Below are positions 1,903-3,740 of a stretch of DNA of 5,930 nt, piece after piece. The translations under genes were made by a program, and so were the position numbers. The notes beneath the pieces were generated by a model. That model was not told the origin of the DNA, searched no databases, and saw only the letters and a program-made list of their open reading frames with translations. This stretch comes from Bacteroidales bacterium (GTDB taxonomy: Bacteria; Bacteroidota; Bacteroidia; Bacteroidales; P3). The DNA is taken from the NCBI GenBank assembly GCA_016281475.1, contig JAEEIS010000238.1:1-5930 (forward strand), given 5' to 3'. The number at the start of each line of letters is the position of its first letter. Position 1 is the stretch's first letter.

Positions 1903-3462
1903 ATGCGAAAAACAATCTTTACCCTGATGCTGCTCTTCGCAGCAACAGCCGTGAGCGCCCAGACCATCGTGAAGGGCGACATGAACGACGACAACAACCT
2001 CACCATTGCCGATGCCGTGAGCTTAGTGGACGTGATTCTGGGCAAGTCGCCCATGCAGACCATCAGCCTGGGCGGCGACCCCTATAAGGTGGACAATGCG
2101 CTGGTCGTCGGCACATGGTATGCGCCGGAAGGCTGGTCGTTCACGCTTAGCGACGACGGCACCACCGACTATCCTGGCGCTACGACCTATAAGTTCCGTC
2201 CCTATCAAGGCACGCTGATGTTCTATAATGCCTCCGGCCGGCCTGTTACAACCATCGTGTTGAACGAAGTAGATGCGTCCTATCTGTTGGCCATCGACTA
2301 CGCCACGCATGCCTATACCTATTACACCAAGTCCACCTCGTTGGCCACTGGCATCACCCTCGACCAGACGTCGCTCACCATCAACAGCGGCACCACTGCC
2401 CAACTCACCGCCAGCATCAAGCCCGCTGAAGCCTTCGCCACTATCACATGGACGAGCAGCGACGAGAGCGTGGCCACCGTCGATGCCAATGGCCTCGTGA
2501 CCGCCGTCGCTGGTGGCACCTGCACCATCACTGCCAAGACGAGCGGCAGCAATAAGACGGCCACTTGTAGCGTAACGGTGAAACAGATGGTGACCAGTAT
2601 CGTGCTGTCACAGACAACGGCTGTCTTGGAGAGTGACGGGATTGTCCGTCTTTCAGCCACTGTGCTGCCAGTGAATGCCTCCAACAAGACTGTTGTTTGG
2701 AGCAGTAATAACGAAGCTGTTGCTGGTGTCGTCAATGGAACCGTGGTTGCTGCCGGTAGCTACGGTACCACAGTCATTACCTGCGAGGCTGCTGACGGCA
2801 GTGGCGTGACGGCGACCTGTATTGTATACATTCTCGATCCCAGCACTTACGTCGACCTCGGCCTGCCATCGAGAACGCTGTGGGCCACCTGCAACGTTGG
2901 TGCCTCAAGTTCCGAGGACTACGGCGACTACTTCGCATGGGGCGAAACCGCTGGCTACAACGATGGGAAGACCAACTTCAACTGGAGCACCTACAAGTGG
3001 TGCGAAGGCTCTTCGTCGACCATGACCAAGTACTGCACGGACAGTAGTTACGGCTACAACGGCTTTACCGACAACAAGACCGAGCTCGACCTGGAGGACG
3101 ATGCCGCCTACGTCAACTGGGGCCCGGCCTGGCGCATGCCGAGCATTGAACAGTTTGCAGAGCTGATCAACAGCGGTTACACTACTACCGAGTGGACCAC
3201 TCAAAACGGTGTCTATGGCAGAAAAATCACAAGTAAGGTTGCTGGATATGAAGGCAACTTCATTTTCCTGCCAGCCGCAGGCGAACGCGACAATAGCTCG
3301 CTCGGCGACGCGGGGTCGGACGGCAACTACTGGTCGCGCACGCTCGGCGGGAGCTACCCGAACAATGCGCGTGGCCTGTACTTCCACTCGGGCTTCATCG
3401 GCACGTACAACGGCTACCGCTACTACGGCCGAAGCGTGCGCCCTGTGCGGCTCTCAGAATGA
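1903..3462 (+). CDS. Secreted half-dockerin / Ig-like / FSMP (C-type-lectin-like) protein, candidate DGR target
   Basis: 519 residues. The start at 1903 is supported by a clean signal peptide ([19 protein letters not shown], likely cut before Gln20). Residues 24-47 are one dockerin-type calcium-loop repeat (D26, N28, D30, D37, then [10 protein letters not shown]); the usual second repeat is absent. Residues about 66-143 resemble a lipocalin-like beta region (VVGTWY...FTLSDDGT...[13 protein letters not shown]). Two Big_2-type Ig-like domains follow at about 148-227 ([10 protein letters not shown]...[13 protein letters not shown]) and 229-310. Residues 316-516 form a Fib_succ_major (FSMP) domain: [29 protein letters not shown], and the ending [10 protein letters not shown]. 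This domain type has a C-type-lectin-like fold and is a common DGR target in Bacteroidetes. The role is inferred as a secreted or surface binding protein; the ligand is unknown. Its stop codon overlaps the ATG of the next open frame (ATGA). Confidence 0.8.
3322..3450 (+). other. Putative DGR variable region (residues 474-516)
   Basis: The extreme 3' end of the FSMP domain runs from GNYWSRT to the invariant-looking tail GRSVRPVR. Of the 35 codons for residues 475-509, 24 end in C and none ends in A. The residues at these NNC codons (N, Y, R, G, S, F, H, I, L) are what randomised AAC codons yield. Fixed-looking codons (TCG, ACG, CCG, GCG, CTG) lie between them. DGR mutagenesis changes template adenines, so AAC-rich templates give this pattern. 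The GC-rich end GGCCGAAGCGTGCGCC is where an initiation-of-mutagenic-homing site would sit. The gene as a whole also favours C-ending codons, and the template repeat is not in the window, so this is inference. Confidence 0.5.
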
Positions 3463-3490
3463 GCGCATCTCTCCCCCAAGACGCCACCCA

Positions 3491-3516
3491 CCGCCCCACA
3501 GCCTGTTGTGGGGCGG
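3491..3516 (+). repeat. 10-bp GC-rich stem-loop downstream of the putative variable region
   Basis: CCGCCCCACA (3491-3500) pairs perfectly with TGTGGGGCGG (3507-3516) over the 6-nt loop GCCTGT. It lies 28 nt after the stop of the FSMP gene and 40 nt after the presumed end of the variable region. No T-run follows, so it is not a standard intrinsic terminator. In known DGRs a GC-rich hairpin or cruciform just downstream of the variable region helps target recognition, and this has that shape and position, although the spacing is larger than in the Bordetella phage example. A transcript-stabilising hairpin is the alternative. Confidence 0.55.
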
Positions 3517-3539
3517 AGGCTCTGCTGGGGGCGCGATGC

Positions 3540-3740
3540 GGCTGTGGTGCACAGATGCTGCGTCACCTAGGCGTGCACAAGATGCGCCTGATGACCAACA
3601 ACCCAGTGAAGCGCGTAGGCCTCGAGGCCTACGGCCTGGAGATTGTCGAGAACGTGCCCATCGAAGTCACCCCCAACGAGTACAACCTCCGCTACCTGCA
3701 GACTAAGAAGCAGCGCATGGGCCACACCCTCCACCTCTAG
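3540..3740 (+). pseudogene. ribBA: 3' remnant of ribBA (GTP cyclohydrolase II C-terminus)
   Basis: The 66 residues from [12 protein letters not shown] to [11 protein letters not shown] and TAG match the C-terminus of GTP cyclohydrolase II, the riboflavin-pathway enzyme that opens GTP. Key family features are present: the GxGAQ motif, [10 protein letters not shown] with the conserved Thr and Lys of the substrate site, EIVENVPI, and RYLQTKK..MGH. Everything before this is missing: the DHBP synthase half, the zinc cysteines and the catalytic Arg region. Intact bifunctional RibBA is about 400 residues. The frame stays open upstream to an ATG at 3459 that overlaps the stop of the FSMP gene, giving a 93-codon frame, but its first ~27 residues ([14 protein letters not shown]...) resemble no RibA sequence and are read through the GC-rich stem-loop. 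The remnant cannot be active. Its protein sequence is otherwise well preserved, which suggests a recent break. Confidence 0.8.

Follow-up and report, generated by a model that had tools for sequence, protein, structure and literature searches.

Several described systems resemble the locus studied here. For the diversity-generating retroelement (DGR) proteins of the human microbiome, the sections of the report that treat them (PMC4159848) describe Fib_succ_major, DUF1566 and Big_2 classes with a C-terminal variable region (VR) and adenine-directed change, as in our gene, and present DUF1566 as similar to Fib_succ_major. In those DGRs, however, the template is paired with the VR, whereas the gene in our window (the whole analysed stretch of 5,930 nucleotides from a Bacteroidales bacterium) is one of many dispersed copies and no template for it was found. 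The remote variable proteins of cyanobacterial DGRs, as outlined in PMC7517822, are likewise dispersed lectin-fold paralogues placed outside the DGR cassette; those genomes contain a DGR, whereas none was found in the genome nearest to the window. In Nanoarchaeota, DGR fragments without a reverse transcriptase (RT) also testify to past adenine-directed change with no RT on site, and the corresponding sections of PMC4372165 call such VRs fossils or remote targets. That case concerns archaea and orphan target proteins, and a comparable paralogue family is not described in those sections.

The DGR of Bordetella phage BPP-1 is similar in having a GC-rich inverted repeat downstream of the VR. According to the part of PMC3240598 devoted to this element, hairpins 4-34 bp behind the VR are a frequent feature of phage-related DGRs and matter for BPP-1, where the stems have 7-10 bp and GRNA loops. 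Many of the hairpins found here are far longer and, unlike those described for BPP-1, they are often preceded by GTGCATCC. Nearer to the window, the FSMP-type DGRs of genomes G333, G192, G081 and G082 have the same domain and template columns homologous to our VR, but they are complete cassettes with the RT adjacent and their templates differ from that of the window's clade. A large DGR survey states, in its account of its own approach, that remote targets would be missed (PMC8144416).

The gene, its reading frame and its GRSVRPVR tail agree with the initial annotation of this DNA (Table 1), and the Ig-like domains that it mentioned were found as two Big_2 stretches. The half dockerin is less secure: the stretch GDMNDDNxLTIADAV..LG can be seen by eye and looks dockerin-like, but the Pfam dockerin models gave no match. 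For the C-terminal domain called FSMP, NCBIfam models did not match at E 0.001 and Pfam Lcl_C (PF07603), the former DUF1566, matched weakly and under its cut-off. The domain model predicts a C-type-lectin-like fold at the VR, as in DGR variable proteins, and the VR (codons 461-508 of 519) lies near the 3' end of the gene, as in DGR targets. Foldseek with the full-length model returned mainly proteins with Ig-like domains, and a sequence search of solved structures gave no useful match.

Table 1. Features of the window around the 1903-3462 gene and its 3' flank
Feature	Positions	Strand	Remarks
Secreted protein, 519 aa	1903..3462	+	Signal peptide, dockerin-like repeat, N-terminal beta domain, two Big_2, C-terminal FSMP/Lcl_C-like lectin-fold domain
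Putative signal peptide, 20 residues	1903..1962	+	Recognised by eye
Dockerin-like repeat, single	1975..2046	+	Recognised by eye; no Pfam match
Two Big_2 Ig-like stretches	2347..2832	+	First is residues 149-224; bounds of second estimated
FSMP / Lcl_C-like domain	2833..3459	+	Predicted C-type-lectin-like fold; domain model pLDDT 94.5
Variable region (VR) proper, codons 461-508	3283..3426	+	Among paralogues base 3 column-fixed, bases 1 and 2 vary
Conserved GC-rich tail, 11 residues	3427..3459	+	By analogy, would hold the place of the initiation-of-mutagenic-homing segment
Altered 3'-flank motif GCGCATC-TCTCC	3463..3480	+	RUG424 counterpart GTGCATCCTCTCC
10-bp GC-rich stem, 6-nt loop, retained in window	3491..3516	+	L001: 7 bp
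Left arm of the paralogues' long downstream hairpin	3489..3542	+	Right arm missing; homology to L002 flank stops near 3542
3' fragment of ribBA (GTP cyclohydrolase II end)	3531..3740	+	Joined at hairpin apex

Taken by itself the window sequence is weak evidence for a DGR variable region, and the case rests on comparison. The dense run of NNC codons reported for 3322-3450 (codons 474-516) is present as a mild enrichment: 27 of its 43 codons are NNC, compared with 211 of 440 in codons 21-460. Its density alone is unremarkable, since 39 of the 477 stretches of this length that the gene contains have more NNC codons. The GC-rich character of this DNA was confirmed, with a GC content of 0.659 in codons 474-516 compared with 0.576 for the whole gene. 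No near copy of 3322-3450 was found within the window. These coordinates overlap a real region, but the imprinted stretch (3283-3426) both begins and stops earlier. Fixed and variable codons do alternate, far beyond chance, but this only becomes visible when paralogues are compared.

Such a comparison was made with 94 proteins of 480-560 aa (that of the window and 93 others, giving 4371 pairs). Mean column entropy reached 1.96 bits in the VR, against 0.67-0.86 elsewhere and 1.32 in the signal peptide. In the VR, fixed columns alternate with variable ones, in which Y, N, S, D and G prevail. Thirteen of the 4371 pairs have 93-97% upstream identity; their median identity falls to 23% at the variable columns and stays at 100% at the fixed ones. 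The 11 pairs above 97% upstream show a median of 86% at variable columns; these close pairs share members and are not independent. Such fast change at the variable columns calls for a dedicated process or for module exchange.

A further pattern concerns the third codon base. Twelve VRs (the window's, six from G001, three from G004 and one each from G002 and G007), picked by hand and by eye for a gap-free alignment that left out the orthologue L001, have a near-invariant third base in each column while their amino acids change among up to ten kinds. Most columns have C as this base, with T at 464 and 495 and G at 483 and 501, and a single amino acid, serine, is encoded by AGC, AGT or TCG according to the column. 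Over the 22 columns with at least five amino acids the third-base consensus was 0.898, compared with 0.622 (sd 0.023) in permutations that preserve the amino acid and the first two bases, and none of 1000 permutations reached it. The upstream control for the same 12 gave 0.549 against 0.517 (reached by 137 of 1000), and at a threshold of at least three amino acids 0.615 against 0.565 (0 of 1000). When all 22 extracted VR-like domains were included, distant copies among them, the consensus was 0.682 against 0.504 (0 of 1000); the control for these domains (0.535 against 0.487, 0 of 1000) departs from its permutations too, though less than the VR, and in this set base 3 varies most of the three in the control and least in the VR.

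The imprint is not equally clear in every copy. With 8 departures in 48 third bases the window is joint highest of the 12, the copy on contig C61 of G001 having one, and three other paralogues of G001 are without it (L087, P 0.22; L113, P 0.15; L119, P 0.47). Contig C42 of G001 (L116 / L288) holds four clustered FSMP domains in neighbouring frames, and the three of them that were analysed belong to the imprinted set but have no 3' motif. Such an imprint would not come from selection on the protein, codon preference or gene conversion; an AAC/AAT template that is copied with changes at adenines does produce it. Substitution at template adenines is thus seen indirectly, from the column-fixed third base, the template itself being absent from the data. 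Judged by the third-base imprint and the domain model, the 3' end of the 1903-3462 gene is a DGR-type variable region by descent, set in the predicted C-type-lectin-like domain of a secreted multi-domain protein, which supports the initial annotation in part.

Genuine DGRs do occur in the same genus. Of its 299 genomes, 19 were matched by a DGR RT query, at 25 places in all; the neighbourhoods of 20 of these places were fetched, together with that of L124, and 18 of the 21 contained template/VR pairs (none in L190, L193 and L194). The pair finders kept repeats with at least 80% (the first one) or at least 70% (the later one, used for G333) of their mismatches at A, the first one accepting also T on the other strand. 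Several of the pairs sit in the FSMP-type domain, which bears out the earlier statement that DGRs with AAC-rich templates diversify this part of such proteins. Mismatches fall on template adenines in 10 of 10 cases in G003, 20 of 20 in both G081 and G082, 21 of 21 in G333, 29 of 33 in G192 and 15 of 18 in one pair of G273.

In 16 pairs with 654 template adenines 416 were kept, and the others had become G (104), T (84) or C (50); the non-A bases of the imprint follow the same order, G>T>C. At the two columns where the imprint has T, the templates of G081 and G082 read AAT at 495 and GGT at 464, and that of G192 reads AAT at 464 and AAC at 495. Proteins retrieved with the G333 RT as query include RT gene calls that begin inside the template, and 16 of the best 120 show FSMP-type templates. 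The template inferred from the VRs, in which Asn was placed at the variable columns by assumption, has 65-82% protein identity to these 16, which took no part in its inference. The YWSRTL form of the window's clade occurs in none of the 16. In P0312, P0316, P0332, P0339 and P0349 automatic gene calling has joined the DGR template and the RT gene into one, and fused calls of this kind place templates in protein databases as N-terminal Lcl_C domains.

The closest relative of the window is RUG424 (genome G001, locus L001). Codons 474-516 differ from it by 5 nt (3.9%) and the domain upstream of them by 4.7%, so no excess of strain-level variation at the VR is seen in this one genome pair. The larger differences lie in codons 49-145 (26%) and in codons 229-310 (24%, a divergent allele within the Big_2 part), the rest of the gene differing by 2-5%. 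The same two blocks are combined differently in P0099, P0114 and P0117, and no close paralogue donor of the window's N-domain allele was found among the 15 loci of G001 compared. Five close alleles differ at codons 503 (N/D), 505 (Y/S/F) and 508 (Y/H), in the 3' part of the VR, and where DNA was compared the changes at 505 and 508 (TAC/AGC and TAC/CAC) keep the third base. Upstream of the gene a long 5' leader (1540-1885) has related copies in G001 (contigs C60, C21 and C10), G002 and G004, some of them before other genes, and L001 lacks most of 1698-1885. Rfam, run on the window with the leader included, gave the single match mir-4510 at E 0.59, which is not credible.

No DGR RT was matched in G001, the assembled MAG of this relative, at E 1e-20; its single RVT_1 match is of the UG26 type. 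The inferred template had 19 matches in eight related genomes, every one within an FSMP gene and at most 83% identical, and a template of the window's clade was found in none of 398 genomes of the genus, for each of which two candidates were scored. Phage and plasmid records gave no convincing match, nor did several pattern searches of viral contigs. Among the latter, the single match in L262 reads as the Asn-rich template of another DGR, thirteen matches do not read as an FSMP-type domain and two more proved on reading not to be DGRs. The group II intron, retron-type and Drt3b RTs of related genomes were typed as non-DGR. FSMP genes occur in 157 of the 299 genomes and do not track the DGR RT (10 of 19 genomes with it, 147 of 280 others). 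The absence of template and RT from a MAG is weak evidence because the contigs that carry DGRs are sometimes very short in these MAGs (3303 bp in G333 and 4130 bp in G400). Of the refuting findings that the initial annotation had named, half were made: the nearest genome yielded neither template nor DGR RT, yet wider relatives vary strongly in excess.

A further comparison concerns the 3' flank. Of 122 unique VR-like ends, 23 (two from templates) are followed within 60 nt by a strict form of the motif, GTGCATCC or TGCATCCT. A loose GTGCATCC pattern of five variants, the window's altered form included, raises this to 29 of 122, which leaves about three quarters of the VR-like ends without motif. 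The background of 0.002 per 60 nt applies to TGCATCCT only; for GCATCC alone 0.04 occurrences are expected per 130 nt. The motif is found behind the template (+30) and the VR (+10, +5) of G333 and G192, and on neither side in the other 20 of the 22 genuine pairs checked. Inverted repeats scoring at least 15 are enriched behind motif-bearing ends: 13 of 28 have one, compared with 19 of 400 control flanks (Fisher 3e-9) and with 6 of the 92 other ends. Motif-bearing rows match the imprint at P<0.01 in 15 of 16 cases, against 16 of 76 without motif, a contrast that is partly selected because many motif-bearing loci were fetched by similarity to the inferred template. This test used 92 of the 122 rows, other genera included, after 13 training, 10 template-like, 5 viral and 2 short rows had been dropped. 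A link between an intact 3' end and the freshness of the VR is only suggestive (p 0.16, not significant).

The folding z of the 150 nt behind the stop is -7.8 for the G333 VR, -7.6 for L002, -7.2 for L008, -8.8 for L036 and -7.3 for L042, followed by L056 (-4.8), L050 (-3.1), the window (-3.0), L049 (-2.7) and L001 (-1.7); motif-bearing flanks without hairpin also exist (L216, 0.4 and 0.1). Folding z alone fails to separate the window from its paralogues, but flank homology does. The flank tracks L002 to about 3542, the apex of the hairpin, and then enters the ribBA fragment, so the right arm has been lost. L001 has the same ribBA junction and its long hairpin is truncated too, with the motif intact and a VR nearly equal to the window's. 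In RUG424 about 60 bp that are present in the window's fragment are deleted from both the main ribBA (L001:2300-2800) and the fragment behind FSMP, which may reflect a broken gene, gene conversion or an assembly artefact.

These data can be accounted for in more than one way. The window gene could be an active DGR target whose RT and template lie elsewhere in the genome of the same strain, in line with the initial annotation, the changes at codons 503, 505 and 508 being fresh retrohoming. Their variation among the five close alleles with the third base kept, the retained 10-bp GC-rich stem, similar in size to the stems given for BPP-1 in the relevant part of PMC3240598, and the weakness of absence from MAGs with such short DGR contigs all speak for it, but they have to be set against the mere 5 nt in 43 codons that separate the window from RUG424, the altered motif, the truncated long hairpin and the search of the nearest MAG that found neither template nor DGR RT. 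We consider an active target unlikely, and the current hypervariability implied by the initial annotation is opposed by the near-identity of the region in RUG424, the damaged 3' flank and the outcome of that search. Much less probable in our judgement is that no retroelement was ever involved and that selection on the lectin binding face together with paralogue recombination produced the variation, NNC coming from codon preference. The gene does exchange blocks elsewhere (codons 49-145 and 229-310), the NNC enrichment in the window is mild and at P<0.01 the imprint is not matched by 60 of the 76 motif-less VR ends. Neither codon preference nor gene conversion, however, would fix base 3 in each column while bases 1 and 2 vary, and permutations that preserve the amino acid and bases 1 and 2 never reach the observed consensus.

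The UG26-type RT, present in G001, G004, G005 and G006, might instead be the diversifier. At E 1e-50 it was matched in 29 of the 299 genomes of the genus, with a single match in 28 (loci include L026, L027, L028 and L029). Beyond its being the sole RVT_1 match in G001, FSMP genes are somewhat more frequent with it (20 of 29 genomes against 137 of 270 others, p 0.08). G002, G007 and G309 nevertheless carry genes of the same clade and lie outside the 29 matched genomes, which led us to reject this candidate; moreover, a VR search of G001 had no match on contig C58, which holds the UG26 gene, and PADLOC classes UG26 as a defence RT. We regard a diversifying role of this RT as scarcely credible.

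The reading that we favour, and hold to be reasonably probable, is that the window gene is a retired member of a dispersed target family that was written by a DGR in the past and diversified in trans. Its VR would have been written by adenine-directed reverse transcription of an AAC-rich template, as one of a family of chromosomal targets dispersed in rumen Prevotellaceae. The machinery would have worked in trans, from a locus that the relative's assembled genome lacks and that may sit on an accessory or poorly assembled element, and the targets would probably be addressed by a 3' signal made of the conserved tail, often GTGCATCC, and a hairpin or cruciform. The data show the codon imprint, hypervariation among wider relatives, a shared 3' motif, enrichment of hairpins, the truncation and near-fixity relative to a single relative; from these we infer trans action, this address role of motif and hairpin, and retirement. 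Recombination with ribBA would then have deprived the long hairpin of one arm, and the motif was altered too; we propose that the region froze because of these two events, the gene now evolving mostly through exchange of whole blocks. The window copy is probably inactive now. The kept 10-bp stem, the z of -3.0, which resembles those of L050 and L049, and the intact motif of L001 count against retirement, and the remaining stem with the three variable codons leaves room for low residual activity. We do not assign the window gene to a working DGR.

For the study of these elements, aligned paralogues suffice: a fixed base 3 with variable bases 1 and 2 can flag remote targets and past activity without the machinery. 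The address model, if true, would explain how one DGR serves many chromosomal genes and how targets are switched off. It is possible, and we put it forward tentatively, that rumen Prevotellaceae hold a dispersed library of secreted lectin-fold proteins that mobile DGRs rewrite in trans, each member carrying a portable address (conserved tail, GTGCATCC and long cruciform) and retiring when this address breaks, and in which the codon imprint would reveal a DGR history in genomes that have neither RT nor template.
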